Positions 29,992-46,185 of a stretch of 64,000 bases of DNA are shown one piece after another. The DNA is from Alphaproteobacteria bacterium (GTDB lineage: Bacteria; Pseudomonadota; Alphaproteobacteria; Caulobacterales; Hyphomonadaceae), in contig WGLW01000034.1 of assembly GCA_016125405.1 (NCBI GenBank), positions 1 through 64,000 of the forward strand. Reading direction: 5' to 3'. The translations under genes and the position numbers were made by a program. A model generated the notes under the pieces. That model was not told where the DNA came from. It worked only from the letters and a program-made list of their open reading frames with translations, and ran no database searches. How positions within the stretch are numbered: the first letter of the stretch is position 1; each line of letters begins with the position of its first letter.

Positions 29992-30146
29992 GGCATCCTC
30001 CCACCCGAGACCTAGATAAGCTAGTCATAGCTCTCTTTTTTCGGCAAGCGGAATTTGACGAGGAGATCGCAACTCGGTCCGGCCGCCTGCGGGTGCTGCG
30101 AAACGCATCGCTTTTGGGGGCCGCGCCGCCATGCTACGTGCCCTCC

Positions 30147-31670
30147 ATGTTCGATCTGATCGTCATCGGGGCGGGAAGCAGCGGCTGTGCGCTCGCCGCG
30201 CGCGCCTCCGAAGACCCGAACCGTCACGTGCTTCTGGTCGAAGCCGGGCCGGATTACAGCGATCTCCGGTCAACGCCTTTCGACCTCGTCAACAGCCACA
30301 ACAATTCCTACTCGGCGCACGACTGGGGCCTGTCCTATCTGCCGACTGCGGGCAGGGACGTGCGCTTCCCACGCGGCCGCGTGACCGGCGGGTCCAGCGC
30401 GGTGAACACCACGATCGCGTTGCGCGGCGTTCCCGAAGATTTTGCCGAGTGGGCCGCGACGGGACTTCCCGAATGGAACTGGGAAGGCGTGCTGCCCGCC
30501 TACCGCCGGCTGGAGCGCGACCTCGACTTCGGCGAACGCGCCTGGCATGGCGATGCGGGACCCATCCCGATCCGCCGTTATCCCGCCTCCGAGATGACGC
30601 TGCCGCATCTCGCCTTCTTCGAGGCGGCGAAGGCGCTTGGCTATCCCGAGTGCGCCGACGCCAACGAGCCCGAAGGATGGGGCGCAAGCCCCCAACCCAT
30701 GAACAAGCTCGGCCGCCTCAGGGTGTCGTGCGCGGTGGGCTACTTAGCTCCGGCGCGCATCCGGCCCAATCTGGACATCCGCCCGGAGACGCTGGTGACC
30801 CGGCTGATCATCGAGAATGGACGCTGCACCGCCGTTGAAGTCCGCAACCGAACCGGCGCCATCGAGATCATTCGCGCGCGGCTGATCGTTCTTGCGGCCG
30901 GCGCGATCATGTCACCCGCCATCCTGATGCGATCCGGCCTTGGCCCACGCGCCCAACTGGAGGCGCACGGCGTCGAGGTGCACCGCGACATCCCCGGCGT
31001 CGGCCAGAATCTGAGCGACCACCCCGCCCTCTCCGTGACGATGCGCCCGAAAGACCCGGCAATGATCGATCACGACGCGCCGATCATCCAGTCGATCCTT
31101 CGCTACACAGCGCCCGGTTCGGACAAGCGCTGCGACCTTCAGATAGAGATGCTGAGTTTCACGGGCCGCCGCGACGAGCCGCAGTTCGGCATAGCAGGGG
31201 TGGTCGAGTACCAGCATGGCCGGGGCGAACTCAGGCTGGCGTCGGCGGATCCGGATGCGGCGCCAGTTATCGACATGCATTTCTGCGAGGATGATCGCGA
31301 CCTTGAGCGCCTTGTCGCCTGCTACCGCGACGTTCTCGATTTCGCCCGCCAGCCCGCCATCGCCGATCTGGCTGAAGACATTGTCTTCCCGCGCGGGGGC
31401 TCCCCGACCGACGAGCGGATCGCCGGTCTTTGCCGCCGATTCGCCGGCAGCGGCTATCACCCCTGCGGCACGGCGAAGATGGGGCCCGCGTCCGACCCGA
31501 TGGCGGTTGTCGACCAGCAAGGGCTTTGCCACGGCGTCGACGGCCTCGTGGTCGCCGACGCCTCGATCATGCCGGCTGTCCCCCGCGCCAACACCAACCT
31601 CACCGCCATCATGATCGGCGAAAAGATTGGCGAATGGCTCAGAACCCGCCCGGCCCTCTATGGCCTTTGA
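30147..31670 (+). CDS. GMC-family FAD oxidoreductase (choline/alcohol dehydrogenase-like)
   Basis: GMC enzymes oxidise primary alcohols with FAD. The 507-residue protein has the N-terminal FAD fold LIVIGAGSSGCALAARASED and LLVEAGPD, GMC signature 1 near residue 80 (PRGRVTGGSSAVNT), signature 2 near 250 (LAAGAIMSPAILMRSGLGP), and a C-terminal catalytic region with SGYHPCGTAKMG and AVPRANTNLTAIMIGE, which contain the His/Asn active-site positions. ATG 30147 starts at the fold. It is divergent from the TonB-receptor operon and 26 bases upstream of the deacylase gene. The substrate may be an alcohol on the same imported compound. Confidence 0.9.
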   Translation: MFDLIVIGAGSSGCALAARASEDPNRHVLLVEAGPDYSDLRSTPFDLVNSHNNSYSAHDWGLSYLPTAGRDVRFPRGRVTGGSSAVNTTIALRGVPEDFAEWAATGLPEWNWEGVLPAYRRLERDLDFGERAWHGDAGPIPIRRYPASEMTLPHLAFFEAAKALGYPECADANEPEGWGASPQPMNKLGRLRVSCAVGYLAPARIRPNLDIRPETLVTRLIIENGRCTAVEVRNRTGAIEIIRARLIVLAAGAIMSPAILMRSGLGPRAQLEAHGVEVHRDIPGVGQNLSDHPALSVTMRPKDPAMIDHDAPIIQSILRYTAPGSDKRCDLQIEMLSFTGRRDEPQFGIAGVVEYQHGRGELRLASADPDAAPVIDMHFCEDDRDLERLVACYRDVLDFARQPAIADLAEDIVFPRGGSPTDERIAGLCRRFAGSGYHPCGTAKMGPASDPMAVVDQQGLCHGVDGLVVADASIMPAVPRANTNLTAIMIGEKIGEWLRTRPALYGL

Positions 31671-31696
31671 TCCGGCAGAGAAGCAGACTGGCGCCC

Positions 31697-33193
31697 ATGG
31701 CGATTGACCTGATCATCCGGAACGCCCGCATCCTCGACGGCCTGGGCAATCCCGCCTTCGAGGGCGATGTCGAGGTGGACGAGGGCCGGATCCGCACAGT
31801 GGGCGCGGCAAGCAGCGAGGCGCGCACCGAAGTGGACGCCGGCGGCCTTCACCTTTCGCCGGGCTTCATCGACGTGCACAGCCACGATGACGGCGCCTTC
31901 ATCCGCTACCCGGACATGGGCTTCAAACTGGCGCAGGGCGTCACGACCTGCGTCTGCGGAAATTGCGGATTCAGCGCCATCCCCGCAACGCCTGGCGAAG
32001 ATCCCGGGCCAGCCAGCGGCGGCATCATCACAGGCGCGCAGGGCGCCTTCGCCGACCTCGAAGGCTATTTCAACGCCGTCTACGCCAAACGGCCCGCGAT
32101 CAACGCCATCATGCTGGTCGGCCACAACACGGTGCGCGCCCAGGTCATGGGCATGGAAAACCGTGCGCCGACGAAAGACGAGCGCGCCGCCATGCGCGGC
32201 AAGGTGGCAAAGGCGATGGAACAGGGCGCCTGCGGCTTTTCCACCGGACTGATCTATCGTCCGGGCCGCTGGAGCGAGACCGAAGAAGTGATCGAACTCG
32301 CGCAAGAGGCCAAAGCCTTTGACGCCCTCTACACCACGCACATGCGCAACGAGGGCGACCGCCTGCTCGAAGCGGTTGAGGAAACCCTGACGATCGCGCG
32401 CAACGCTGGCGTGCGCGCGCACATCTCGCACCACAAGGCGGCGGGCAAGGCCAACTGGGGCAAGGTGCGCCAGTCGCTCGATCTTGTGGACGCAGCCAAG
32501 GCCGCCGGACAGACGGTGACGCTTGACATCTATCCCTACACGGCCGGCAGCGGGCGAATGATCGAATACTTCCGGCTCGACGCCATCGACCGCAGCTTCG
32601 CGGAAACCATCCGCATCGCCAATTGCCCCGCCTTCCGCGAATTCGAGGGCCGGATGCTTTCAGACATCGCCGTCGAGCGGGCCGAAGACATCGCCGACAC
32701 CGTTCGTCTTATCCTTACGGCGCCCAAGGGCGACCGCACGATCTGCATCCACTTCATCATCGATGAAGCCGACATCGAGACCAATCTTCGTTATCCCGGC
32801 ATGATGGTCGGCTCGGACGGCATCCCCACGCTGAATGGCAAGCCGCATCCGCGCCTGTTCGGAACCTTCCCGCGAGTGCTGGGCGAATACGTCCGCAAGC
32901 GCGGTGTGCTAAGCCTCGAGGAAGCCGTCGCGCGAATGACCTCCGTCTCGGCCGACACCTTCGGCCTGAAGGAGCGCGGCCGCATCGCGGAGGGCTATCA
33001 CGCCGATCTCGTCCTGTTCGATCCGGGCGTCATCATCGACGCCGCCACATATGACAATCCCAAGCAGACGCCGCCGGGCGTCTCGCTGGTTGTCGTCAAC
33101 GGCCAGATCGCGCTGCGCGACGGCGTCGCCACCAACGCCGGGTCCGGACAGATGCTGCGCTACCGCCGCCACGCCTACGCCGCTTCAGCCTGA
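31697..33193 (+). CDS. N-acyl-D-amino-acid deacylase-like amidohydrolase
   Basis: A 498-residue amidohydrolase of the D-aminoacylase/dihydroorotase type. It shows PGFIDVHSHDDGAF (metal motif HxH near residue 62), CVCGNCGFS (the Cys metal ligand seen in D-aminoacylases), GHNTVRAQVMG, FSTGLIYRPG, THMRNEGDRLLEAVEE, HISHHKA and GSDGIP near residue 375. These enzymes release D-amino acids from N-acyl forms in the cytosol. Together with the D-threonine-aldolase-like enzyme across the divergent promoter, the locus could process N-acyl-D-amino compounds. It converges on, and overlaps by 19 bases, the next minus-strand gene. Confidence 0.85.
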   Translation: MAIDLIIRNARILDGLGNPAFEGDVEVDEGRIRTVGAASSEARTEVDAGGLHLSPGFIDVHSHDDGAFIRYPDMGFKLAQGVTTCVCGNCGFSAIPATPGEDPGPASGGIITGAQGAFADLEGYFNAVYAKRPAINAIMLVGHNTVRAQVMGMENRAPTKDERAAMRGKVAKAMEQGACGFSTGLIYRPGRWSETEEVIELAQEAKAFDALYTTHMRNEGDRLLEAVEETLTIARNAGVRAHISHHKAAGKANWGKVRQSLDLVDAAKAAGQTVTLDIYPYTAGSGRMIEYFRLDAIDRSFAETIRIANCPAFREFEGRMLSDIAVERAEDIADTVRLILTAPKGDRTICIHFIIDEADIETNLRYPGMMVGSDGIPTLNGKPHPRLFGTFPRVLGEYVRKRGVLSLEEAVARMTSVSADTFGLKERGRIAEGYHADLVLFDPGVIIDAATYDNPKQTPPGVSLVVVNGQIALRDGVATNAGSGQMLRYRRHAYAASA

Positions 33194-33567
33194 GGCCGGG
33201 AGAGCAGGGTTCGACCCGCCGCCAGCACGACCAGCAGGACGACCTCGATCGCCGCGGGCTGGATCATGCTCTGCTCGAATCCGTTTACGACGACGGTCAC
33301 GATGCGACCCGCCAGCGCGAGACAGATCAGCAGCAGCGGCGCCGTCAGCAATCGCGCGCGGTCCCGAATGGCCGCGTAAAGCGCCAGCGCGCCAGCGCCG
33401 CCAAAGAAGCCGCCCAGATCGGCGCGCAGCGTCGCAAGGCCAAGACCGCCCTCGCCGGTCAGACCCAGCCGCTCAGCGGGCGCCGCCGGATTGGCCCAGA
33501 AAGCGAGGGCGACAATGATCGCCAGCACGCCCGCCACGCCCACAAGTCCCCGAACCGCCCACTTCAT
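33175..33567 (-). CDS. Small membrane protein, DUF4345-like
   Basis: 130 residues with four predicted hydrophobic helices (for example VGVAGVLAIIVALAFW and LLICLALAGRIVTVVV). The pattern ADLGGFFGGAGALALYAAIRDR then LAGRI resembles DUF4345-type proteins of unknown function. It is divergent from sulfatase 1 and shares its operator-bearing promoter region (33568-33654). A protein of similar build lies at 38293-38730, so the pair brackets the sulfatases. Confidence 0.65.
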   Translation of the reverse strand: MKWAVRGLVGVAGVLAIIVALAFWANPAAPAERLGLTGEGGLGLATLRADLGGFFGGAGALALYAAIRDRARLLTAPLLLICLALAGRIVTVVVNGFEQSMIQPAAIEVVLLVVLAAGRTLLSRPQAEAA

Positions 33568-33580
33568 CTCGTCCTCCAGT

Positions 33581-33607
33581 TATTGACATTCATTATGCCA
33601 TAATATC
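33581..33607. promoter_or_regulatory. Shared operator/promoter motif, copy A
   Basis: TATTGACA (33581-33588), 7 bases, TGCCA (33596-33600), then the -10-like TAATAT (33601-33606). It lies between the divergent DUF4345-like gene and sulfatase 1. The same layout recurs at 35471 and 42038, which suggests one regulator, perhaps the TetR at 38727. The AT-rich sequence stands out from its GC-rich surroundings. Confidence 0.55.
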
Positions 33608-33654
33608 TTTCCTCGTCGAGGCGGACGAAAACTCCGCCAGCCGAGGAGGCGAGC

Positions 33655-35460
33655 ATGGGCAAGGGCGTCCTCAACCTCGTTGCGCCGCGCGCACTTGGCG
33701 CCGTTGCGGCAGGCCTGGCGCTGCTGGGCTCGGCCCGGGCCGATCCTCCGCCAGCAAATCACCGGCCCAACGTCGTTCTGATCCTGGTGGACGACGCCGC
33801 CTTCATGGATTTCGGCGCCTATGGCGGCGAGGCGCACACGCCAAACATCGACAGGCTGGCGGGACAGGGCGTGCTCTTCACCGACTATCACACCTCGCCA
33901 CTCTGTTCGCCCTCGCGCGCCATGCTGCTGACCGGCGTCGACAATCACAGGACCGGCGTCTCGACGATCGAGGAGGTCATCCCGCCGGAACAGCGCGGCA
34001 AGCCGGGCTACACACTGCATTTCGAACCGGGCGTCGTCACCATCGCCTCGCGCCTCAAGGCTGCGGGCTATCGCACCTACATGGCTGGCAAATGGCATCT
34101 CGGGCACGGGCCCGGCGACCTGCCGGACGCGCACGGCTTCGACCACTCGCTGGCGCTGGACGCCTCGGGCGCCGACAACTGGCAGCAAAAGCCCTACATG
34201 CCGTACTACGACAGCGCGCCATGGTTCGAGGACGGCAAGCCGACCAGACTGCCGGACGACTTCTATTCCTCCACCCTGCTGGTGGACCGCATGATCGGCT
34301 ACCTGCAGGCAGGCAAGGACAGCGGTCAGCCGTTTTTCGCCTACCTTCCCTTTCAGGCTGTCCACATTCCTGTGCAGGCGCCGAAGGAATACTCCGACCA
34401 CTATGCCGGACGGTTCGATGCGGGCTGGGATGTTCTTCGGCGCGACCGCTGGGAGCGTGCGCAGAAACTTGGGCTCATCCCCGAAAGCGCGCCGCTCGGC
34501 CCAATGCCGAAGGGCTCTCGACCATGGAGTTCACTGAGCCCAGAAGACCAGAAGATCTATGCGCGCAGCATGGAGGTCTATGCCGGGATGATGGAGGCGA
34601 TGGATCACGAGATCGGCCGGCTGATCGGCTATCTTGAGGCGCAGGGCCAGTTCGCCGACACCGTCTTCATCATCGCGTCCGACAACGGCCCGGAACCCAG
34701 CGATCCGGTCCACGCGCAAGGCATGGACCTCTGGATGGGCCTGCACGGTTATGACTGGAAGCTGGACGACCTCGGCCTCAAGGGCAGTCTCAACTATATC
34801 GGGCCGGAATGGGCCGGGGCGGCCGCCTCGCCCGGCATACTGTTCAAATTCTACACGGCGGAGGGCGGCGTTCATGCGCCGCTGATCGTGTCCGGTCCCG
34901 GGATCGCCGCGGGCGCGCGGACGGCGGCGCAGGCGTTCGTCACGGATGTCGCGCCCACCATTCTCGATTTGACCGGCGTTCCCGACACCCATGCGCCCGG
35001 TGGCATCCCGATGTGGGGACGCAGCCTGGCGCCGGTGCTGGACGGGCAGGCCAACACGGTCCACGGGCCCGACGATCCGGTCGGCTTCGAGGTCTCCGGC
35101 AACGCCTCGCTGTTCAGGGGCGACTACAAGCTGGTGCGCGACATGCCGCCTTACGGCGATGGACAATGGCGCCTGTTCAATCTTGCCGCTGACCCAGGCG
35201 AAACCAGCGATCTGGCGGCCTCGCGACCGGATCTCTTCACGGAGATGAAACGCGACTACGCGGCCTACGCCAAAAAGGCCGGTGTGCTGGAGCTGCCGGA
35301 GGGCTACGACGTCCAGCAGCAGATCGTGAAAAACGCCATCGGCAAGCAGGTGCGGCGCTATGGGGGCGGTCTCGCGGCGGCCGGCGCAGCGATTGTCCTG
35401 GTTCTGGCGGCCGGCCTCTGGCTCGTGCTGCGTCGCCGGGGCAAGCGCAGCACGTCTTGA
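33655..35460 (+). CDS. Formylglycine-dependent sulfatase, exported, with C-terminal membrane anchor
   Basis: A 601-residue type I sulfatase that hydrolyses sulfate esters. A signal peptide covers residues about 1-29 (LGSARAD). The catalytic fold starts with NVVLILVDDAAFMDFGAYG (metal Asps). The key motif SPLCSPSRAMLLTG has Cys84, the residue converted to formylglycine. GYRTYMAGKWHLG (signature 2) and IIASDNGPEPSD (metal site) follow. A C-terminal helix, GLAAAGAAIVLVLAAGLWLVL, with a basic end anchors it in the inner membrane, leaving the catalytic part in the periplasm. A candidate operator lies just upstream. A formylglycine-generating enzyme in the same cluster (42113) could activate it. 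Confidence 0.92.
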   Translation: MGKGVLNLVAPRALGAVAAGLALLGSARADPPPANHRPNVVLILVDDAAFMDFGAYGGEAHTPNIDRLAGQGVLFTDYHTSPLCSPSRAMLLTGVDNHRTGVSTIEEVIPPEQRGKPGYTLHFEPGVVTIASRLKAAGYRTYMAGKWHLGHGPGDLPDAHGFDHSLALDASGADNWQQKPYMPYYDSAPWFEDGKPTRLPDDFYSSTLLVDRMIGYLQAGKDSGQPFFAYLPFQAVHIPVQAPKEYSDHYAGRFDAGWDVLRRDRWERAQKLGLIPESAPLGPMPKGSRPWSSLSPEDQKIYARSMEVYAGMMEAMDHEIGRLIGYLEAQGQFADTVFIIASDNGPEPSDPVHAQGMDLWMGLHGYDWKLDDLGLKGSLNYIGPEWAGAAASPGILFKFYTAEGGVHAPLIVSGPGIAAGARTAAQAFVTDVAPTILDLTGVPDTHAPGGIPMWGRSLAPVLDGQANTVHGPDDPVGFEVSGNASLFRGDYKLVRDMPPYGDGQWRLFNLAADPGETSDLAASRPDLFTEMKRDYAAYAKKAGVLELPEGYDVQQQIVKNAIGKQVRRYGGGLAAAGAAIVLVLAAGLWLVLRRRGKRSTS

Positions 35461-35470
35461 CGGTTCATAG

Positions 35471-35498
35471 TATTGTCAGTGATAGTGTCATTATAATC
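35471..35498. promoter_or_regulatory. Shared operator/promoter motif, copy B
   Basis: TATTGTCA (35471-35478), 7 bases, TGTCA (35486-35490), then TTATAATC (35491-35498) with a perfect TATAAT at 35492-35497. It starts 10 bases behind the sulfatase 1 stop and 47-74 bases before the GST-like gene. Its layout equals copies A and C. Confidence 0.55.
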
Positions 35499-35544
35499 CC
35501 GAACGGGAGTCGGACGCCGGCGAGACCGGCGGCGGGAGGAATAC

Positions 35545-36582
35545 ATGGGACCAGCCGCTTCGCCCGGCCCGCTCAGGCTGATGGGCGCGCCGGGCTCGCC
35601 CTATACCCGCAAGATGATCGCGCTTCTGCGCTACCGCCGCATTCCCTACGCGATCCTGTGGGGCGGCCATCAACGCCCGCCGGAAGGCTACCCCGCGCCC
35701 AAGGTGCGCCTCCTTCCGACATTCTATTTTCCCGCTGACGATGGCGCGCTCGAAGCTGTCGTCGATTCCACGCCGATCGCCCGCCGCCTCGAAGCTGACT
35801 ACCCCGGCCGGTCCGTGATCCCGGACGATCCGGCGCTGCGCTGGCTCAACGAGCTGATCGAGGATTTCGCGGACGAATGGCTGACCAAGCCGATGTTCCA
35901 CTATCGCTGGGCGCACCAGGCCGACATCCTCAATGCCGGCCCGTTGCTGGTTTACTGGTCGGCGCCAACAGTTTCGCCCGAAGAAGGTTCGGCGATGGCG
36001 GTGGCGTTTTCCGAACGCCAGATCGGGCGCCTGCATGTTGTCGGCTCCAACGACATAACGGCGGAGACCATCGAGTCGAGCTATCGGCGTCTGCTCGGAC
36101 TTCTCGACGAGCGCATTCGAGATGAAGGCTATGTCTTCGGCGCCCGGCCCGCGACGGCTGACTTCGCGCTCTACGGCCAGCTGACGCAACTGGCGATCGT
36201 CGAGCCGACGTCCGCAGCCATTGCGTGCCGGGACGCGCCGCGCGTGCGCGCCTGGATCGACAGGGTCGAGGACCTGTCAGGTCTTGAGCCGGAAGCCGGC
36301 GACTGGCTGGCGCGCGACCGGTTCGACGTGCTGCAGGCGCTGCTCGCGGAAATCGGCCGCGTTTACGTTCCTTTCCTGCTCGCCAACGCCGCCGCCGTTC
36401 AGGCGGGCGAAAAAGCGTTTGAAACCGATATCGACGGTCGCAAATGGTCCCAGCCGACCTTTCCCTATCAGGCCAAGTGCCTGCAGTGGCTTCAGGAAGG
36501 GTATCGCGCGCTCGGGTCCGGCGACCGGTCCGTCGTCGACAATGTTCTCGAGGGAACCGGATGCGAACGGCTGACTGCGTGA
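35545..36582 (+). CDS. Glutathione S-transferase family protein
   Basis: 345 residues, longer than a usual GST (about 200-230). The thioredoxin-like N-terminal domain is at residues 10-95 (RLMGAPGSPYTRKMIALLRY, LPTFYF, and VDSTPIARRLEADYPGR with the glutathione-binding Ser position). A helical GST-C domain follows (YVFGARPATADFALYGQL). An extra C-terminal helical region of about 80 residues is present. GGGAGGA precedes the ATG. It lies between two sulfatase genes with copy B of the shared motif before it. The role may be glutathione-dependent dehalogenation, ether cleavage or isomerisation; which one cannot be told. Confidence 0.82.
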   Translation: MGPAASPGPLRLMGAPGSPYTRKMIALLRYRRIPYAILWGGHQRPPEGYPAPKVRLLPTFYFPADDGALEAVVDSTPIARRLEADYPGRSVIPDDPALRWLNELIEDFADEWLTKPMFHYRWAHQADILNAGPLLVYWSAPTVSPEEGSAMAVAFSERQIGRLHVVGSNDITAETIESSYRRLLGLLDERIRDEGYVFGARPATADFALYGQLTQLAIVEPTSAAIACRDAPRVRAWIDRVEDLSGLEPEAGDWLARDRFDVLQALLAEIGRVYVPFLLANAAAVQAGEKAFETDIDGRKWSQPTFPYQAKCLQWLQEGYRALGSGDRSVVDNVLEGTGCERLTA

Positions 36583-36609
36583 TGGCTGCGGCTTCGGAGA
36601 TGGGGTGAC

Positions 36610-38277
36610 ATGAAACGATTTCTTCTGATCGCGCTCGTCGTTGTCGTCGGGCTTGGCGCTGCGGCCTTCATCTTCCGCAAGCCCCTGATCCTCTACACCG
36701 CCACCACCATCGCCAAGGCGCAAAGCAAGATCGCTCCCAACCATCCGGTCGAATGGCAGCAGGGCCCGGATCAGGCCGCAACGCCGCTGGACCAGCGACC
36801 GCCCAACATCGTCTTCATTCTCGCAGACGATCTCGGCATCAACGACATCACCACTTTCGGCGGCGGCAACGCCGGCGGCCGCGTGCCGACGCCCAATATC
36901 GACCGGCTGGCGAAGCAGGGCGCAATCTTCTCCCGCGCCTATTCCGGCAGCTCCACCTGCGCCCCGTCGCGCGCCATGATCATGACCGGCCGCTACCCGA
37001 CGCGGACCGGCTTCGAGTTCACGCCGACGCCAAACGGCATGGGCAGGCTGGTGTCGATGTTCGCCAACGGCGACGGGTCGGGCCTTCCGCCGCTGGATTA
37101 CGACGCCAAGCTCGACAAGTCCTCGCCGCCTTTCGCGCAACAGGGCCTGCCGGGAAAGGAAGTCACCATCTCCGAGGTTCTCCGCGACGCCGGCTACCAC
37201 ACTGTCCACATCGGGAAATGGCACCTTGGCCTTGGCCCGGAATTCGGCCCCAACGCGCAGGGCTTCGACGAGAGCCTTCTTATGGCCAGCGCGCTCTACC
37301 TGCCCGAGCACGACCCCAACGTGGTCAACGCAAAGCTCTCCTTCGACCCGATCGACAAGTTTCTCTGGGCCCGCATGCAGTACGCCGCCGCCTACAATGA
37401 GGGCCCTTGGTTCAAACCCGGCGGCTATCTCACGGACTGGTGGACCGACGAGGCGATCAAGGTCATCCACGCCAACCGCAACCGCCCGTTTTTCCTCAAT
37501 GTCGCGGAGTGGGGCGTGCATACCCCGCTTCAGGCGACCAAGGCCGACTATGACGCCGTCGGCGACATCCAGCCCCATCGCGCCCGCGTCTACGCCGCCA
37601 TGGTCCGCTCGCTCGACCGCAGCGTCGGCCGCATCATGGACGCCGTGAAGACCGAAGGTCTCGCGGACAACACCATCTTCGTCTTCACCAGCGACAATGG
37701 CGCGCCCGGCTATATCGGCATTCCCAAGGTCAATGCGCCCTATCGCGGCTGGAAGCTGACCCTGTTCGAAGGCGGCATCCGGGTACCGTTCTTCATCTCG
37801 TGGCCCGGACACATCAAACCGGGCACGACAATCGATGCCCCGGTCGCCCACATCGACCTGATGCCGACCTTCGCCGACGCCGCGAAGGCCGCCATTCCTG
37901 TGGGCGACGTGATCGACGGCGCCGACCTGATGCCGCTGGCGGAGGGCGATCCCGCCGCCAATCCGGTCCCGCACGATGCGATCTTCTGGGAGTCCGACTA
38001 TTATCAGGTGGTCCGCCAGGGCGACTGGAAACTGCAGACCACGAAGCGCCCCGAGAAGACCTGGCTGTTCAACCTGAAGGACGACCCAACCGAGCACCAC
38101 GATCTCGCCGCCGAGATGCCGGACAAAGTCGCCGAGCTGAAGCAGCTTCTGGCCGACCATCGCAAAGGCGCGGTTCCCCCGCTCTACCCCTCGACCACGC
38201 AAAGCCCCGTCGCCATCGACAAGACCGCCGCCGACCATTTCGAAAAGGGCGATGAATACGTCTACTGGCCGAACTGA
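36610..38277 (+). CDS. Formylglycine-dependent sulfatase with N-terminal membrane anchor
   Basis: A 555-residue type I sulfatase. Residues 4-22 are an N-terminal helix (FLLIALVVVVGLGAAAFIF) with no clear cleavage site, so it is probably a membrane-anchored periplasmic enzyme. It has NIVFILADDLGINDI, SGSSTCAPSRAMIMTG (Cys117 becomes formylglycine), GYHTVHIGKWHLGLGP, FTSDNGAPGY and a C-terminal substrate strand with WKLQTT. Compared with sulfatase 1 it is a different subfamily, anchored at the opposite end. It follows the GST gene by 27 bases and precedes a small membrane protein by 15. Confidence 0.92.
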   Translation: MKRFLLIALVVVVGLGAAAFIFRKPLILYTATTIAKAQSKIAPNHPVEWQQGPDQAATPLDQRPPNIVFILADDLGINDITTFGGGNAGGRVPTPNIDRLAKQGAIFSRAYSGSSTCAPSRAMIMTGRYPTRTGFEFTPTPNGMGRLVSMFANGDGSGLPPLDYDAKLDKSSPPFAQQGLPGKEVTISEVLRDAGYHTVHIGKWHLGLGPEFGPNAQGFDESLLMASALYLPEHDPNVVNAKLSFDPIDKFLWARMQYAAAYNEGPWFKPGGYLTDWWTDEAIKVIHANRNRPFFLNVAEWGVHTPLQATKADYDAVGDIQPHRARVYAAMVRSLDRSVGRIMDAVKTEGLADNTIFVFTSDNGAPGYIGIPKVNAPYRGWKLTLFEGGIRVPFFISWPGHIKPGTTIDAPVAHIDLMPTFADAAKAAIPVGDVIDGADLMPLAEGDPAANPVPHDAIFWESDYYQVVRQGDWKLQTTKRPEKTWLFNLKDDPTEHHDLAAEMPDKVAELKQLLADHRKGAVPPLYPSTTQSPVAIDKTAADHFEKGDEYVYWPN

Positions 38278-38292
38278 TCTGCCGAGCGATCC

Positions 38293-38730
38293 ATGTCCCT
38301 GCTGCCCGCCTCAACCAACAGCGACTACCTCGGCGCCCGGTCAGCCGCCTGGTTTCTCGCCCTCATCGGCGCGCTGACGTTCGTGCCCGGCTGCATCCAT
38401 ACCTTCCTGTCGGATGGCGGGGCAGGCGTCATCGCCGGGCTCGACCTTACCGCGAACGGGCCGCAGGTGATCGGCCTGTTCGCCTGGGCCGGCGCGACGC
38501 AGATCGCCTGGGGCGCGATGATGCTGGCGGTCGCCCTGCGCTACCGGCCGCTCACGCCGCTCGCCCTCGCCCTGCTTCTTGTCGAACGCACGCTACATGC
38601 GCTTGATGGATGGCTGCTCAAGGCGCCGGCGATCGGTCACAAGCCGCCTGAGGCTTACGCCGTTCTTGTCGCGCTGCCGCTGATCCTGATTTTTCTGGCG
38701 CTGTCCTTGCGCCGCCGCCGCGCCAGCTAG
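38293..38730 (+). CDS. Small membrane protein, DUF4345-like
   Basis: 145 residues with four hydrophobic segments (AAWFLALIGALTFVPGCIH, VIGLFAWAGATQIAWGAMML, TPLALALLLVERTLHALDGWL, LVALPLILIFLALSL) and a basic C-terminus. It resembles DUF4345-type proteins and, in build, the gene at 33175. Its function is unknown. It lies 15 bases behind sulfatase 2, so it is co-transcribed, and overlaps the convergent TetR gene by four bases. Confidence 0.65.
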   Translation: MSLLPASTNSDYLGARSAAWFLALIGALTFVPGCIHTFLSDGGAGVIAGLDLTANGPQVIGLFAWAGATQIAWGAMMLAVALRYRPLTPLALALLLVERTLHALDGWLLKAPAIGHKPPEAYAVLVALPLILIFLALSLRRRRAS

Positions 38731-39350
38731 CGCTTCGATACGAGGCGATTGACCACCGCGGCCATGACCTCTTCCGCCTCCGCCGCCGACAGGCCCTGGT
38801 CCTGGCGCATCCGCCGCCACGCCTGAAAGCCCGTCACCATCTCCAGCGCCGCGCTCAGCACCCGGTCATTGAGAATGTGCGGCGGCAGAATGCCCTGCAG
38901 CCCGCCGCGCTCCAGTCTCAGGAAGCGGTTGTAGTCATCCATCAGATAATCGGACTGGAAGCGCCGGACGCTCGACGCCACCTTCATCGGCATGATCTTC
39001 TCGTAGATGCCCGCCCGGCGCGCCACCAGCTGATCCAGCCGCCCGCGCCAGTCCCTCGCATCGAAGGGCTGCATCACGATCGGCATGATCTCGGCTTCCA
39101 TGCGCGCCGACATCTCGCGATAGAGAACGTCCATTTCCTCGAAATGGCGGAACACGGTGCGCAGGCTCACGCCCGCCGTTTCAGCGACCTTGGCCGCCGA
39201 AAGCGCCATGTCGCCCTCGCGCACGAGCTTGAACAGCGCCTCGACAATCTGCCGGCGGCTACGTTCGCTGCGCATCCGCCGGCCGTCGGCGGGCGCATCG
39301 TCGTCCACGGGCGCGGAATCCGCGCGCTTGAGCGCCTTCTGGGATTTCAT
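38727..39350 (-). CDS. TetR/AcrR family transcriptional regulator
   Basis: 207 residues with an N-terminal TetR HTH at about 28-75 (RSRRQIVEALFKLVREGD, LSAAKVAETAGVSLRTVFRHFEEMDVLYREM). Arg-rich and acidic lead residues (1-27) precede it. It is the only regulator inside the 33-42 kb sulfatase/dehalogenase cluster, so it is the best candidate to bind the three shared dyads. No copy of that motif is visible before its own gene. Confidence 0.9.
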   Translation of the reverse strand: MKSQKALKRADSAPVDDDAPADGRRMRSERSRRQIVEALFKLVREGDMALSAAKVAETAGVSLRTVFRHFEEMDVLYREMSARMEAEIMPIVMQPFDARDWRGRLDQLVARRAGIYEKIMPMKVASSVRRFQSDYLMDDYNRFLRLERGGLQGILPPHILNDRVLSAALEMVTGFQAWRRMRQDQGLSAAEAEEVMAAVVNRLVSKR

Positions 39351-39403
39351 TGCGCCGGCATCTTATTGCGACCGGCGGCCATTGCGACAGGGAAAAATCG
39401 CAT

Positions 39404-40489
39404 CTAGCCGGGCCGTGTGCGGCGAATGTCTGCCGAGCCGGCGGGCAGGCTGAACAGCTCGCCATCGGCGCCAATCTCCAACGGGCCGGAGAACACCTTG
39501 TGCGCATCGCCCAGGAAGGCGGCGTCGAGCAGGCGCGAGGGCAAGGGCGGCACGATGTGATAGAGCACAAGCCGTTTCACCCCCGCCTCTTTGGCCGCGC
39601 GGGCCGCATCTTCCGGCGTCGAGTGATAATTGATGATGTCATGCATGACCTGGGCGAGGTTCGGCTGGCCGTTCTTCTCGGCCGCATCATGCATCATCAT
39701 CACCAGCTTGGGGTTCAGCGCCTCGTGCAACATCAGGTCGGCGCCCCTTGCCGCCTCGACGAAGCCCGGAAAATAAACGGTGTCGCCGCTGAGGGCGACC
39801 GACCGGCCCTTGTAGTCGATGCGATATCCGAACGCCGGCTTCACGGGCCCATGGTCAACCGTGATGGCCGTGATGCGCACACCGCCATCGTCCAGCACCA
39901 CCTTGCGGCCGGGCGGACCATCCGGGATGTCGATCTCCTCGGCGACGCCGCCAAATCCCCCGGGGTCGGCGACCTTGGCGCCGTGATGCGCGGTGCGATA
40001 TCCGCTGTCGATCCGGTAGGCGCCGTTGAACCCGGCGACCACGTCGGCAACGCCCGCCGGTCCTGACACCGGCAACGGCGTATGGCGCGAACCGCCCACC
40101 CACGCCTGAAGCATCACGTCGCCCAACCCGTCGATATGATCGGAGTGCAGGTGCGTGAGATAGACGTGCTCGACCCGCCCGGTCGGAAATCCCATCCGCG
40201 CCAGACGCCGCGCGCCGCCCGAACCCGCATCGAAGACAAACGCCCGCGTCCCGGCGACAATTCCGACACACGGGCCATTGCGCGCCGGATCCGGCAGCGG
40301 CGATCCCGTACCGCACAGATAAACCTGCAACCCGTCGGGAAGGTCAGCCGACCGGTCGCGCCCCACCTGCTTCATCGCGGCGGTGCGGAACATTGTTTCG
40401 CCCATCTGACGTTTCATCGCCAGAAACCCGAGGGCGCCCAGGACGCCGATCGCGATGACGACGACCAGTCCGCGCCAGAGCCACTTCAT
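39404..40489 (-). CDS. MBL-fold metallo-hydrolase with N-terminal membrane anchor (arylsulfatase/RNase Z-like group)
   Basis: A 361-residue metallo-beta-lactamase-fold protein. An N-terminal helix (LVVVIAIGVLGALGFLAM) anchors or exports it. Motifs follow in order: LCGTGSPLPDPARNGPCVGI, FVFDAGSGGARRL, the zinc motif THLHSDHIDG, VDHGPVKPAFGYRI, SGDTVYFPGF, LYHIVPPLP. The layout resembles RNase Z/AtsA-like hydrolases, some of which are metal-dependent arylsulfatases. The cluster suggests an ester or sulfate-ester hydrolase in the periplasm; the exact activity is unknown. ATG 40489 overlaps the preceding DUF1330 gene as ATGA; the frame to 40684 lies inside that gene. Confidence 0.83.
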   Translation of the reverse strand: MKWLWRGLVVVIAIGVLGALGFLAMKRQMGETMFRTAAMKQVGRDRSADLPDGLQVYLCGTGSPLPDPARNGPCVGIVAGTRAFVFDAGSGGARRLARMGFPTGRVEHVYLTHLHSDHIDGLGDVMLQAWVGGSRHTPLPVSGPAGVADVVAGFNGAYRIDSGYRTAHHGAKVADPGGFGGVAEEIDIPDGPPGRKVVLDDGGVRITAITVDHGPVKPAFGYRIDYKGRSVALSGDTVYFPGFVEAARGADLMLHEALNPKLVMMMHDAAEKNGQPNLAQVMHDIINYHSTPEDAARAAKEAGVKRLVLYHIVPPLPSRLLDAAFLGDAHKVFSGPLEIGADGELFSLPAGSADIRRTRPG

Positions 40490-40953
40490 GGCGTTCCCCG
40501 CATTGTACCGGCCAGCGCCACCTGCCAGTCCGGAGCGCCGCCCGCCGGCAACACAGTCTCGATGTTGAGCTGGCCCTTGAGCCCGGCGGAACGGTGCACG
40601 GCGATCTGCCGCCACTCCTCCGACATCGACATGCGCACCATGTCGCCCCGGCCCGGATAGGCCGCGATCGCCACCTCGTCCCAAAGCTCGTCGGCCTTGC
40701 CGAGCGAGAGGAAGGTCACATCCGCAGCAAAGATCGCCTTGCCGCCAAACTTCGGCAGCAGCTCGGTAACGGCGCGGCCGTAGATCATGTAGGCCTCGCG
40801 GCCCGTGAGCGAGGTTTCCCGCCCGTCATCATATTCGGCGCGATCCTTGAACTTCAGCAGGTTGACCATGAAGACCGGACCTTCCGGTCCCGCCTCCATC
40901 AGCTTGCCGATCTGCGAGGGATCGGTCGGGAAGACCTCGTTGACAATGTTCAT
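40486..40953 (-). CDS. DUF1330-like protein
   Basis: 155 residues with the ferredoxin-like strand-helix pattern of DUF1330/dimeric alpha-beta-barrel proteins: PVFMVNLLKFKDRAEYDDGR, YGRAVTELLPKFGGKAIFAAD, and VAIAAYPGRGDMVRMSMSEEW. Such small proteins often sit in catabolic clusters; no reaction is established. I start at ATG 40953 (GAGGGG upstream), although an in-frame ATG lies at 40971. It is translationally coupled to the MBL-fold gene and follows the dehalogenase. Confidence 0.78.
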   Translation of the reverse strand: MNIVNEVFPTDPSQIGKLMEAGPEGPVFMVNLLKFKDRAEYDDGRETSLTGREAYMIYGRAVTELLPKFGGKAIFAADVTFLSLGKADELWDEVAIAAYPGRGDMVRMSMSEEWRQIAVHRSAGLKGQLNIETVLPAGGAPDWQVALAGTMRGTP

Positions 40954-40992
40954 GGCTGTCCCCTCTTGCATCCGGCCCCTGTCGCGCTCCGC

Positions 40993-41997
40993 TCAGGCGG
41001 TTTCGCGCATGAAGTCGATGATCGCTTTCGAAAACGCCTCGGGCTGCTTTTCCTGCAGAAAATGACCGCCGCCCTTGATGGTCACGTGGCTGCGTCCACG
41101 CGCGCCTGGAATGCGGGATTGGAAAGCCGCCTCGCCGCCACGCGTCACCGGATCATCGTCCGTGAACGCCGTCAGCACCGGCCGCTCGAACCGTTCCAGC
41201 ACCGCCCACGCCCTGTCATTCGCCTCTCGCTCCGCCTTGTGCTCGGGCGTCGGCAACAGCGGCACCAGCGCCGGAAACTTGCGCGCGCCGGCGATGTAGC
41301 GCGCGTCCGGATAAGGCGCGACATAGCCGTCGAGCACGGCGGGATCCTCGATCTGCGACAGGATGTTGAACACTTCGCGCACCGAAAATGTTGGCGACTC
41401 GCTGGCGTATTTGACCCAGTAGAGAAAGGCTGCCGGAGCGCCCGCGCGAAACTGCTCCGTCACCATCGCGGCGTCCGGAACCGGAACCTGCGGAAAGAAT
41501 TGCCCGAGCATGGCCACCATCGCCTCGGGCGGCGCCTTCGAGTTCGGCAGACCGGTATTGGCGATCACCAGCCGCGCGAACCGCTCCGGATGAAGCCCCA
41601 CCAGGCGCAGGCCGATCAGCCCGCCCCAGTCCTGGCACACCAGCGTCAGACCCTTGAGATCGAGTCCGGTCAGCCACTGGCTCATCCACTCGACATGACC
41701 CGTATAGGAATAGTCCTCCATCCGCACCGGCTTGTCTGACCGGCCAAAGCCGATCAGGTCCGGCGCGATCACGCGATAGCCGGCGCCCGTCAGGATCTGG
41801 ATCATCTTGCGGTAGAGATACGACCAGGACGGTTCGCCATGCAGGCAGAGGATGGGCTCGCCGTCACGCGGACCTTCATCAAGGTAGTGGAGCCGCAGCT
41901 TTGTCCCGTCGCCAGCAGCGACTTCGGCGTAGTGCGGAGCGAAGGCGTATCCGCTCAATCCCTCGAAACACGTGTCCGGCGTCCTCAGGACTTCCAT
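40993..41997 (-). CDS. Haloalkane dehalogenase (alpha/beta hydrolase, DhlA-like)
   Basis: A 334-residue alpha/beta hydrolase. The oxyanion and halide strand reads LCLHGEPSWSYLYRKMI (Glu55 as in DhlA-type enzymes). The nucleophile elbow is VCQDWGGLIGLRL, with Asp123 as nucleophile and Trp124 as halide ligand. The catalytic acid lies in LTAFTDDDPVT and the base in IKGGGHFLQE. A true Asp nucleophile followed by Trp separates dehalogenases from esterases. It hydrolyses terminal haloalkanes to alcohols and halide in the cytosol. It is divergent from the FGE gene and shares copy C of the cluster's motif. Confidence 0.88.
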   Translation of the reverse strand: MEVLRTPDTCFEGLSGYAFAPHYAEVAAGDGTKLRLHYLDEGPRDGEPILCLHGEPSWSYLYRKMIQILTGAGYRVIAPDLIGFGRSDKPVRMEDYSYTGHVEWMSQWLTGLDLKGLTLVCQDWGGLIGLRLVGLHPERFARLVIANTGLPNSKAPPEAMVAMLGQFFPQVPVPDAAMVTEQFRAGAPAAFLYWVKYASESPTFSVREVFNILSQIEDPAVLDGYVAPYPDARYIAGARKFPALVPLLPTPEHKAEREANDRAWAVLERFERPVLTAFTDDDPVTRGGEAAFQSRIPGARGRSHVTIKGGGHFLQEKQPEAFSKAIIDFMRETA

Positions 41998-42037
41998 CGC
42001 GACCTCGATTCCATCGACCGTCCGCCGACATTCTATG

Positions 42038-42065
42038 TTTTGACATAATGTGTGTCAATATAATC
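42038..42065. promoter_or_regulatory. Shared operator/promoter motif, copy C
   Basis: TTTTGACA (42038-42045), 7 bases, TGTCA (42053-42057), then ATATAATC with TATAAT at 42059-42064. TTGACATAATGTGTGTCAA is a perfect six-base dyad. It lies between the divergent haloalkane dehalogenase and formylglycine-generating enzyme genes. TTGACA and TATAAT are only 13 bases apart, so they are not a normal -35/-10 pair; the dyad is more likely an operator covering a promoter. Confidence 0.6.
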
Positions 42066-42112: not shown

Positions 42113-43189
42113 ATGCGGAACGCCATCCTCAGATCTGCCAGCCTTGCCTGCCTGCTGGCGCTCGCCACAGCGTGCAGCCGCGGCGCCGATATCCAGAAAA
42201 TGTCTGCGGCGATCTCCGCGTCATGCCATACGCCGCCACCATCCGAACACGCACCTGCGACGCAAGGCATGGTCCTGATCCATGGCGGCGATTTCTCCAT
42301 GGGGGCCCAGCCGCGCCATCGCGAGGAAGGTCCGCCGCGGCAGACCCGCGTCGGCGCGTTCTGGATCGATGAAACCGAAGTCACCAATCGCGACTTCGCG
42401 AGGTTCATCGACGCCACGCACTACAAGACGCTGGCCGAACGCCCGCTCGATCCCGCCGCGTATCCCGGACTGACGGCGGACCAGCGCAAACCGTCCAGCC
42501 TTGTCTTTGTCGGCGCAAACAGCCCCAACGCCGGGCCGCTGCAATGGTGGTCGGTGATCGCCGGCGCCGACTGGCGCCATCCGGGCGGGCCAGCCACATC
42601 GATCGCAGGACATGACGACGACCCCGTCGTGCAGGTCGCCTGGGAAGACGCCATGGCCTACGCGCGCTGGCTCGGGCGCGACCTGCCGACTGAAGCCGAA
42701 TGGGAATACGCCGCGCGCGGGGGCCTCGACAACGCGACCTACACCTGGGGCGATGCGCCGCCGGAGGACGCTTCCGGCAAGCCGCTTGCCAATATCTGGC
42801 AGGGCGTTTTCCCGGTGCTCGACACCGGCGCCGACGGCTACAAGGCGAAGGTCGCTCCGGTGGGATGCTTTCCGCCGAACGGCTATGGCCTCCACGACAT
42901 GGCGGGAAATGTCTGGGAGTGGACGAAGGACTGGTACGCGCCGGGCCTTGATCCCGCCGACGCGGACGATCCGCAGGGACCAGACCAATCCCGCGCACGC
43001 GATCCGGACGAACCAGGCGTCGCCAAGCATGTCGTCAAGGGCGGATCATTTCTGTGCGCGGACAATTATTGCCTGCGCTATCGCCCGCCGGCGCGTCAGG
43101 CCGGTCCGCCCGACACCGGATCGAACCACATCGGCTTCCGCACCATCCTGCGCGTTCCGGCAGAACCAGCGCCGACGAAAATCCGCTAA
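42113..43189 (+). CDS. Formylglycine-generating enzyme family lipoprotein (sulfatase maturase)
   Basis: FGE oxidises the CxPxR cysteine of sulfatases to formylglycine with O2. The 358-residue protein starts with a lipoprotein signal (ACLLALATAC lipobox, Cys near residue 21), so it is exported. The FGE domain follows: MVLIHGGDFSMGAQ, DETEVTNRDFARFI, LPTEAEWEYAARGG, YGLHDMAGNVWEWT. The terminal VKGGSFLCADNYCLRY keeps the Cys-x4-Cys active pair of true aerobic FGEs, which many homologues lack. Two CxPxR sulfatases lie 4-8 kb upstream, so it is very probably their activator. Periplasmic placement is unusual, because sulfatases are commonly matured before export. Confidence 0.88.
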   Translation: MRNAILRSASLACLLALATACSRGADIQKMSAAISASCHTPPPSEHAPATQGMVLIHGGDFSMGAQPRHREEGPPRQTRVGAFWIDETEVTNRDFARFIDATHYKTLAERPLDPAAYPGLTADQRKPSSLVFVGANSPNAGPLQWWSVIAGADWRHPGGPATSIAGHDDDPVVQVAWEDAMAYARWLGRDLPTEAEWEYAARGGLDNATYTWGDAPPEDASGKPLANIWQGVFPVLDTGADGYKAKVAPVGCFPPNGYGLHDMAGNVWEWTKDWYAPGLDPADADDPQGPDQSRARDPDEPGVAKHVVKGGSFLCADNYCLRYRPPARQAGPPDTGSNHIGFRTILRVPAEPAPTKIR

Positions 43190-43199
43190 CGCCGTGCGC

Positions 43200-43691
43200 T
43201 CAGCGCTCAGGCTGCGGCGGCGCGTGGCGGTCCAGCGAACCGATGTCGAGGATCGGCGAGGCGTCCATACCTTCGGCGTCCAGCAGAGCGGCGACCCGCT
43301 CAAGGGCAGAGACCACGCTTGCCTGCTCCCAGTCCTGCAGCCTGTTGAAGCGGGCGGAAAAACGGTCCTGCAGAACATCCGGCGTGTCGGCGAGGGCCGC
43401 GCGCCCCTCGGCCGTCAGTTCGGCGGTCACACGGCGGCGGTCATTGGGATCGCGCCGGCGCAGCACCAGCTTTCGCTCCTCCAGCTTGTCGAGCAGGGAT
43501 GTCACCGTCGCCTGGCTCAGCTTCGCCGCTTCGGAAATCGCGCCCGCGCCGGCCTCGCCCTGACGCGCGATGATCTGCAGCACCACCACCTGCGACGGCG
43601 TCAGGCCGGATTTCCGCGCCAGATCGCGCGATGCGAACTCGGCGGCGCGAAGGATTCGGCGGATGGCGACTAGTGCATCCGTGGCGCGCAT
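43200..43691 (-). CDS. ectR: MarR family regulator (EctR-like)
   Basis: 163 residues with a central winged helix (LTPSQVVVLQIIARQGEAGA, AAKLSQATVTSLLDKLEERKLVLRRRDPNDRR, the beta-wing RRR-DPNDRR). ATG 43691 has GGGAGG seven bases upstream. It is divergent from ectA. MarR proteins called EctR repress ectABC in several methylotrophs and halophiles from exactly this position, though often in the same direction. The dyad at 43857-43875 is its likely target. The name is inferred from position and family. Confidence 0.82.
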   Translation of the reverse strand: MRATDALVAIRRILRAAEFASRDLARKSGLTPSQVVVLQIIARQGEAGAGAISEAAKLSQATVTSLLDKLEERKLVLRRRDPNDRRRVTAELTAEGRAALADTPDVLQDRFSARFNRLQDWEQASVVSALERVAALLDAEGMDASPILDIGSLDRHAPPQPER

Positions 43692-43775
43692 CTCAGGCCT
43701 CCCGCATCGACGTTCTCTCCTAACCTCGAGCGGGGCGCTGTGCATATCTCTTCGAATAGTAAAATAATATCAGGC

Positions 43776-43800
43776 GGAACCCCCTCATTCTGCTACGGTT
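43776..43800 (+). promoter_or_regulatory. EcfG-like promoter of the ectoine operon
   Basis: GGAAC (43776-43780), 16 bases, GGTT (43797-43800). The alphaproteobacterial general-stress sigma factor EcfG recognises GGAAC-N16/17-CGTT, so this has a perfect -35 and one mismatch in the -10. It would start transcription about 75 bases before ectA, which fits osmotic control of ectoine synthesis. A second, TTGACT element (43847-43852) closer to ectA could be another promoter. Confidence 0.5.
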
Positions 43801-43856
43801 TTGATCATTAAAGCCCTGTTTTTGCCTAACGATTTGGCAGTTTGGGTTGACTTACA

Positions 43857-43875
43857 TATTTCGATGCACGAAATA
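43857..43875. promoter_or_regulatory. Perfect dyad before ectA, candidate EctR operator
   Basis: TATTTCGATGCACGAAATA is a perfect 7-base inverted repeat with a 5-base centre, placed 7 bases before the ectA start codon. MarR proteins bind such dyads. The first half resembles the TATTTAGT half-site described for methylotroph EctR. A repressor here would block both transcription and early elongation. Confidence 0.55.
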
Positions 43876-43882
43876 CCCGCCC

Positions 43883-44440
43883 ATGGAAACCTCAACCGGA
43901 CAGACCTTCGATTCCGAAGGCCGGGCGGGCCAAGCGTCCTCATCCCTGCTGTTTCGCGAGCCGCGTGCGGCCGACGGCGCGATGGTGCACGACCTCATCG
44001 CGCAGTGCCCGCCGCTCGATCCGAACTCGCTTTACTGCAACCTGCTGCAATGCAGCCACTTCGCCGGCACGTGCGTGATCGCGGAAATCGGCGGAAAAGC
44101 TGGCGGCTGGATTTCGGGCTATATCCGCCCCGACCGCCCGGACACGCTGTTCATCTGGCAGGTCGCCGTCGCTCCTGAAGCTCGAGGCCGCGGCCTCGGC
44201 CGCCGCATGATTCGCGCCATCCTCGAACGCCCCGCCTGTCGGGGCGTAACCCGTTTGGAAACCACCATCACCGAATCCAACGACGCCTCGTGGGCGCTCT
44301 TCCGCGGGCTCGCACACGATCTCCACGCGCGTTTTACGCACCGTCCCGGCTTCGAGGCCGAGACCCATTTCGCTGGCCGACATGCGACTGAGCACCTGGT
44401 CGAGATCGGCTCCTTTCGCGGCGGCCCGTCGGGCCGCTGA
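43883..44440 (+). CDS. ectA: L-2,4-diaminobutyrate N-gamma-acetyltransferase
   Basis: EctA is the acetyl-CoA-dependent second step of ectoine synthesis. The 185-residue GNAT protein has the family hallmark DPNSLYCNLLQCSHFAGTCV, GYIRPDRPDTLFIWQVAV, the acetyl-CoA loop ARGRGLGRRMI, and TTITESNDASWALF. ATG 43883 lacks a visible ribosome site and lies right behind the dyad, so the true start could be slightly different or the message nearly leaderless. It is followed by ectB after 26 bases. Confidence 0.94.
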   Translation: METSTGQTFDSEGRAGQASSSLLFREPRAADGAMVHDLIAQCPPLDPNSLYCNLLQCSHFAGTCVIAEIGGKAGGWISGYIRPDRPDTLFIWQVAVAPEARGRGLGRRMIRAILERPACRGVTRLETTITESNDASWALFRGLAHDLHARFTHRPGFEAETHFAGRHATEHLVEIGSFRGGPSGR

Positions 44441-44466
44441 ATCCGTCACACATCAGAGGGGAAACC

Positions 44467-45780: not shown

Positions 45781-45791
45781 GGAGACCCGAC

Positions 45792-46184
45792 ATGATCGTT
45801 CGCGACCTGAAAGACGCCGACCAGACCCGCCGACGCGTGGTCTCCAAAGGCTGGGAAAGCACGCGCCTTCTTTTGAAGGATGACAAGATGGGCTTTTCCT
45901 TCCACATCACTACGATCTACGCCGGCGCCGAGCTGCCGATGCATTACCAGAACCACCTCGAGTCGGTTTACTGCATCTCCGGCGAAGGCTCGATTACGGA
46001 CAAGGCGACGGGCAAGACCCACGCCGTTCATCCCGGCGTGATGTACGCGCTCAACGAGAATGACGACCACATTCTCCGCGCCAAGTCCGAGATGAAGATG
46101 GCCTGCGTCTTCAACCCGCCGCTCAACGGCCGCGAAGTCCACGACGACACGGGCGCCTACCCGCTTGAAGCGGAGGGCGTCTGA
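45792..46184 (+). CDS. ectC: L-ectoine synthase
   Basis: EctC closes the ring of N-gamma-acetyl-diaminobutyrate to ectoine. The 130-residue cupin has the typical start [27 protein letters not shown], the metal-site region [19 protein letters not shown] and [11 protein letters not shown], and [11 protein letters not shown]. Length matches the family (128-137). GGAGA lies seven bases before the ATG, and ectD follows one base after its stop. Confidence 0.96.
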
Positions 46185-46185
46185 C

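Follow-up and report, generated by a model that had tools for sequence, protein, structure and literature searches.

The DNA stretch considered here comprises 64,000 nucleotides from an alphaproteobacterium of the Hyphomonadaceae (Caulobacterales; GenBank assembly GCA_016125405.1, contig WGLW01000034.1, positions 1 to 64,000 of the forward strand), and is termed the window throughout. It carries a cluster of genes encoding two sulfatases, a formylglycine-generating enzyme (FGE), a glutathione S-transferase (GST)-like protein, a haloalkane dehalogenase (HLD), a metallo-beta-lactamase-fold (MBL) hydrolase and a TetR-family regulator, the last at 38727-39350 on the - strand. Three intergenic copies of one imperfect palindrome, about WATTGRCA-N7-TGYCAATW, stand before the transcription units of this cluster, and comparison among genomes makes it highly probable that they are operators of this TetR, which would repress the cluster genes and be released by a ligand. 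A profile of the site follows the regulator from genome to genome within the order, relatives carry the same site ahead of the orthologous genes, and the palindrome overlaps the predicted promoter at the two units whose promoters can be read. The cluster would thus represent a new local regulon, though one of a well-known type.

The three sites were first noticed in an earlier note made from the sequence alone, which described the array TWTTGWCA-N7-TGYCA at 33581, 35471 and 42038 and placed all three copies between genes. Both statements hold: a pattern search of the window returned exact + strand matches at these positions, and each is intergenic when set against the gene positions. The pattern is also matched exactly on the - strand at 42041-42060, because the copy at 42038 is a near-palindrome. 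When up to two mismatches were permitted, the window yielded 10 matches, including both strands of some sites, vs a mean of 2.05 and a maximum of 5 in 100 dinucleotide shuffles. Predicted operator 1 (33584-33600, + strand, TGACA-N7-TGCCA) lies between the divergent DUF4345 gene and the sulfatase 1 gene, predicted operator 2 (35474-35490, + strand, TGTCA-N7-TGTCA) before the GST-sulfatase 2 unit, and predicted operator 3 (42041-42057, assigned no strand, TGACA-N7-TGTCA) between the divergent dehalogenase operon (- strand) and the FGE gene (+ strand). For comparison, a search of public genomes with the TetR identified six relatives (two Blastomonas, one Sphingomonas, one Sphingomonadaceae metagenome-assembled genome (MAG) and two Hyphomonadaceae MAGs), and another 40 loci surrounding TetR homologues from the order were read, for a total of 46 loci and 870,530 bases; since L015 duplicates L051, 45 of the loci are distinct.

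In relatives, two layouts of the palindrome with respect to promoter elements were found. In layout (a), found at the head of the operon, the left half-site TTGRCA coincides with the -35 element, TTGACA being the sigma-70 -35 consensus. The predicted promoter of the dehalogenase operon (42030-42058, - strand) is of this type, with a -35 TTGACA at 42058-42053 that overlaps operator 3, a 17-bp spacer and a -10 TAGAAT at 42035-42030; among relatives, TA occurs exactly 17 bp downstream in 20/31 sites, and the next best distance, 13 bp (15/31), corresponds to the AT arm of the site. In layout (b), found at the GST and HLD units, TTGAC starts 17-18 bp before the operator in 10/19 relatives' sites, and the -10 element therefore falls inside the operator. 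The predicted promoter of the GST unit (35457-35486, + strand) combines a -35 TTGACG at 35457-35462 with an 18-bp spacer and a -10 GATAGT at 35481-35486, the latter matching 4/6 consensus positions and lying within operator 2. These layouts replace, on the basis of better fit, the AT-rich -10 element that the earlier note had placed beside the motif: an AT-rich stretch is indeed present, but most of it belongs to the AT arm of the operator itself and is not a separate element of fixed position, and the TATAAT sequences at 35492 and 42059 have, by eye, no -35 element at normal spacing. Layout (b) was observed at 0/11 sulfatase 1 sites, and no clear -35/-10 pair was found in the window for the sulfatase 1, DUF4345 and FGE genes.

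We propose that a TetR dimer would bind the palindrome, whose left half-site would double as the -35 box at the dehalogenase promoter, while the GST promoter would have its own -35 element, starting 17 bases before an operator enclosing the -10; at either layout, bound TetR would block RNA polymerase. Since bound TetR would cover a promoter element in both layouts, repression is the most likely mode of action. Entry of a ligand into the cell would cause TetR to release the DNA, whereupon about ten genes would be induced together, namely those for the DUF4345 protein, sulfatase 1, the GST, sulfatase 2, a 145-aa protein, the haloalkane dehalogenase, a 153-aa protein, the MBL hydrolase, FGE and TetR itself. 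Starting from the site at 42041, the dehalogenase, 153-aa, MBL and TetR genes follow one another at short distances and in the same orientation; because TetR is the last gene of this operon, it is probably autoregulated, and its membership in its own regulated set would provide negative feedback. As a first guess, the ligand may be a compound that sulfatase 2 consumes or produces, since this enzyme is the frequent partner of TetR (see below). Co-induction of FGE would be sensible because both sulfatases are of the Cys type activated by FGE and the FGE has the paired cysteines. Action of the bound TetR as an activator, or with mixed effects, is unlikely; the lack of a canonical -35/-10 pair at sulfatase 1 and FGE and the position of TATAAT at 42059, just downstream of the operator, speak for it, whereas the operator covers a -35 or -10 element at both readable promoters, and most TetR proteins are repressors.

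The tie between site and regulator was examined in a single sample of 299 genomes from the order, in which genomes were scored as TetR-positive at E<=1e-20 and as carrying a profile match at E<=0.01. The profile, R1, was built from an alignment (A1) of 61 of 70 relatives' sites, relatives only, with L051 left out. TetR was present in 115/299 genomes and a profile match in 75/299, and these two sets overlap strongly, with matches in 74/115 TetR-positive vs 1/184 TetR-negative genomes. When the 41 genomes of previously read loci were removed, the association persisted at 41/74 vs 1/184 (Fisher p 5e-26). Within the window's own family the profile was matched in 31/41 TetR-positive vs 0/20 TetR-negative genomes, and the tie is therefore not explained by deep ancestry alone. 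Among the matches listed, the site is no more than 12 kb away from TetR in 28 of the 34 non-training genomes; 11 of those genomes, whose TetR homologues are 38-44% identical, have it 36-131 bp ahead of the matched TetR region. TetR is rarer outside the order, occurring in 15/385 genomes of a class-wide draw that includes the window's own genome (E<=1e-25).

Sulfatase 2 and TetR form a tightly linked pair, occurring together in 101/299 genomes (TetR in 115, sulfatase 2 in 113; p about 1e-49). At the cut-offs used, 14 genomes carry TetR without sulfatase 2 and 12 carry sulfatase 2 without TetR, and these exceptions separate the two candidate predictors: the profile site occurs in 6/14 TetR-only vs 0/12 sulfatase-2-only genomes (p=0.017), so that it is the regulator, not sulfatase 2, that predicts the site. 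The proposal in the earlier note that the TetR at 38727 is the regulator accordingly draws support from the genome-wide association, the co-location of site and gene, the probable autoregulation and the absence of the site from all sulfatase-2-only genomes. That the sites instead belong to another regulator, such as the MarR encoded at 43200, with TetR a mere passenger of the cluster, is very improbable. About 1.1 kb separates the end of the MarR gene from the 42041 site, the co-occurrence of site and TetR is throughout correlative, and a looser core of the site is common in genomes without TetR; a MarR homologue, however, was found in only 1/45 TetR loci, MarR adjoins ectoine genes, the profile tracks TetR and not sulfatase 2, and the 11 genomes with distant TetR homologues place the site 36-131 bp upstream of TetR. 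MarR was rejected as the regulator on the basis of the single locus, its ectoine neighbourhood and the 6/14 vs 0/12 comparison.

The specificity of the sequence was assessed in the window and in the whole genome (3,863,241 bases). With up to three mismatches, the long pattern TATTGWCA-N7-TGYCATWAT gave 7 genomic matches, of which 4 fall at the three window sites (0-2 mismatches) and 3 elsewhere (3 mismatches each); its reversed control gave 4, and matches with three mismatches are therefore at chance level. Within two mismatches, only the three window sites were recovered. A symmetrised matrix was additionally derived from 67 sites of relatives, with the window excluded from training. Its two halves read TGRCA and TGYCA, with C/T preferred just inside the left one and G/A inside the right one, and each is flanked by an AT-rich arm of about three strong and three weaker positions. 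Training sites score from 25 to 50 except for two low ones (-11.9 and 0.3), which were retained although probably due to chance. Applied to the window, the matrix ranks 42041 first (41.8), followed by 33584 (36.7) and 35474 (31.8), with fourth place at 1.4; because these three come first by such a distance, they seem to be the complete set for the window. Profile R1, in turn, found 42041 and 33584 only in its search of the window's own genome up to E<=10, and missed 35474. The many random genomic hits that the earlier note had named as grounds for doubt thus did not appear with either the long pattern or profile R1.

Conservation in relatives extends from the spacing of the palindrome to the genes behind it. 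In the six relatives first identified, TGNCA-N7-TGNCA occurs in 6/6, at 1-4 sites each and 16 in total, with the TGRCA/TGYCA core in 12/16 and an orthologue of a window gene downstream of 15/16. Across the 46 loci, TGRCA-Nk-TGYCA was found 70 times at k=7 (in 37 loci) and 0-6 times at each of 15 other spacings, and the stricter TTGRCA-Nk-TGYCAA 27 times at k=7 vs once at all other spacings combined; the locus represented by both L015 and L051 was counted twice in this tally and partly so in the matrix. Relatives have the same site before the orthologous genes, at estimated distances of -4 to 142 bases from the gene start (34-44 for HLD). Among 15 loci distant from TetR, hand-picked from the profile matches listed, 11 have the site 18-130 bp before a homologue of the HLD, sulfatase 1 or 2, GST, MBL or DsbA-like gene, HLD being the downstream gene in four of these 11; the remaining four (L089, L091, L094 and L099) lack such an arrangement under this test. 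Position and this conservation, including the 11/15 distant loci, support the idea of one regulon over the cluster. A chance resemblance among three promoter-like stretches, each with TTGACA and AT-rich DNA at a shared spacing, is a negligible possibility, for although TTGACA is what sigma-70 promoters would supply and the sites are AT-rich within a GC-rich genome, chance is no explanation for 70 sites at spacing 7 vs at most 6 at any other, the best matrix score in 7.68 Mb of simulated sequence with the window's dinucleotide composition was 18.3, below all three window sites, nothing else in the genome lies within two mismatches of the long pattern, and conservation in relatives speaks strongly against it.

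Several observations weigh against the assignment of these sites to TetR, in addition to the units without a readable promoter and the absence of layout (b) from sulfatase 1 sites. In 6 of the 34 non-training genomes the listed site is not near TetR, and 41/115 TetR-positive genomes lack a profile match (E<=0.01, with stricter filters in force), so that some TetR homologues may bind another sequence. Site 35474 departs from the consensus in its left half (TGTCA), and operator 2 may be the weakest of the three predicted operators; one relative, L014, has only off-consensus sites (three, of the form TGRCA-N7-TGACA). The TetR_N domain score falls slightly under the Pfam cut-off. Finally, the looser pattern WTTGRCA-N7-TGYCAAW occurs in 53/115 TetR-positive vs 59/184 TetR-negative genomes (p=0.019), and other regulators probably use similar cores. 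Because the loose pattern is nearly as common without TetR, the core of the palindrome is not diagnostic by itself, and for this poor separation the loose pattern was rejected as a genome-wide marker in favour of the fuller profile R1. In the window's own family the loose pattern occurs in 27/41 TetR-positive vs 3/20 TetR-negative genomes, and its reversed control in 16/299 genomes overall (5 TetR-positive, 11 TetR-negative). It is the full profile with its arms, not the shared core, that follows this TetR. The weakness of the loose pattern and the 11/15 distant sites pull confidence in opposite directions.

The product of 38727-39350 is probably a true but divergent member of the TetR family. 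Its TetR_N match (residues 35-80) scores 22.2 bits (E 1.3e-4) against the cut-off of 24 bits; matches to the NCBIfam models FabR, MftR and AcrR are weak, the best being FabR at 22.2 bits vs a cut-off of 151, and solved TetR-type structures are likewise matched weakly (best E 3.7e-4). TetR, AcrR and KstR exemplify TetR-family local repressors with autoregulation. The window protein resembles such repressors in its small size, a probable N-terminal helix-turn-helix, a predicted palindromic operator that overlaps promoters and the probable inclusion of its own gene in the regulated set, and differs in that no NCBIfam model recognizes it at cut-off and structures match it weakly. We know of no described TetR with this operator, and the titles and abstract openings of the published work searched describe neither such a regulon nor a TetR with this operator.

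The predicted regulon begins, on the - strand, with the gene for a DUF4345 protein (33175-33567; PF14248, 29.4 bits vs a cut-off of 26.5), whose start codon lies 16 bp from operator 1; a site precedes the DUF4345 gene in 5 loci, the window included. Sulfatase 1 (33655-35460, + strand; PF00884, 208.9 bits) carries CSPSR at residue 84 and, by eye, a C-terminal hydrophobic stretch. The GST unit, all on the + strand, consists of the GST-like protein (35545-36582; PF13417 and PF13410), sulfatase 2 (36610-38277; PF00884, 197 bits; CAPSR at residue 117; N-terminal hydrophobic stretch by eye) and, as its last gene, that for the 145-aa protein (38293-38730), which is hydrophobic by eye and matches nothing in Pfam or NCBIfam. 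The sulfatase domain together with the C-x-P-S-R motif identifies both sulfatases as type I (formylglycine) enzymes. Preceding TetR in the - strand operon are the haloalkane dehalogenase (40993-41997; NF002043, 435 bits vs a cut-off of 265), the conserved 153-aa protein (40486-40947; no Pfam match) and the ribonuclease-Z-like MBL hydrolase (39404-40489; PF12706, 75.4 bits; N-terminal hydrophobic stretch by eye), which scores 185.4 bits against NF000806, under the cut-off of 363. A provisional DUF1330 label received no support from Pfam. The TonB receptor, GMC oxidoreductase and amidohydrolase genes at 27742-33193 were excluded from the regulon, there being no matrix site before them and homologues in 3, 0 and 1 of 45 loci, respectively, as lower bounds.

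The dehalogenase is assigned to the haloalkane dehalogenases by its family profile and by its alignment with PDB 5ESR, its best structural match (337 bits), which we take to be DccA of Caulobacter crescentus; the aspartate, tryptophans, acid and histidine, presumably the catalytic residues, are aligned. It differs from 5ESR-like enzymes in its location within a sulfatase/FGE regulon. FGE (42113-43189, + strand; PF03781, 272.6 bits) is identified by its FGE-sulfatase domain and the paired cysteines GGSFLCADNYCLRYR, cysteines that have an active-site role in FGE enzymes; no NCBIfam model matched it at its cut-off. Sulfatase genes accompanied by a maturation enzyme are a known arrangement, and the window shares with it the Cys-type sulfatases and a nearby FGE; it differs in the shared predicted operator, which links FGE with the sulfatases, the GST and the dehalogenase, and in the export signal, read by eye, of FGE. 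This lipoprotein-like signal, MRNAILRSASLACLLALATACS, stands at the start of the protein, and the site of action of an exported FGE would be outside the cytoplasm, an unusual location for the bacterial enzyme.

Homologues of these genes were counted by tblastn, because the gene caller was crude and missed genes, in the 45 distinct loci (L015 dropped); as the loci span at most 20.6 kb each and some are cut by contig ends, the counts are lower bounds. Sulfatase 2 was found in at least 35 loci, MBL in at least 32, the 153-aa protein in at least 28, FGE in at least 27, sulfatase 1 in at least 22, GST in at least 16, HLD in at least 14, the 145-aa protein in at least 9 and DUF4345 in at least 6. 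A DsbA-domain protein of about 425 aa (L015 6993-8267, L046 11565-12851), present in at least 26 loci but not detected in the window, is often the first gene of the TetR operon in relatives, in the position that HLD occupies in the window; genes seem to be swapped in this one slot.

A regulon predicted from bare sequence thus stands up in 299 genomes, with operator, regulator and gene set defined. It provides a regulator and partner enzymes for the haloalkane dehalogenases of this group, the natural substrates of which are not yet settled, and the inducer of a single reporter could therefore point at the native substrate. A review (PMC6299022) suggests that haloalkane dehalogenases hydrolyse natural chloroalkanes and have a function linked to halogenated compounds of natural origin. 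It is conceivable, though we advance this only tentatively and consider it rather doubtful, that the regulon constitutes one pathway for natural compounds that require sulfate removal, glutathione chemistry and dehalogenation and are sensed by TetR, the dehalogenase's native substrate being an intermediate; sulfated halogenated natural products would be an example class, and the TetR inducer would then reveal that substrate. Sulfated steroids, algal polysaccharides and terpenes were set aside as substrates, their only basis being gene names. The TetR/operator pair is also of possible use as a sensor.

Some further observations concern neighbouring genes and sites in other genomes. In the window, the MarR gene stands beside the ectoine/hydroxyectoine genes ectA, ectB, ectC and ectD (43200-47145), each of which passes its NCBIfam cut-off. 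A near-identical palindrome resembling TTGGCAACCCTCTTGCCAA is repeated in TetR-negative genomes of one genus, g9 (e.g. G007, G027 and G047), and is probably the site of another regulator. Genome G179 (L104) has a single strong site without TetR, next to a gene with a MEKHLA domain; the 6.6 kb read around it showed no gene related to those of the cluster. In another family, G153 (L084 3463, 7768 and 12878) and G272 (L105) contain 6 and 11 profile matches, respectively (E<=0.01, both strands counted), which suggests a larger regulon in these two genomes.

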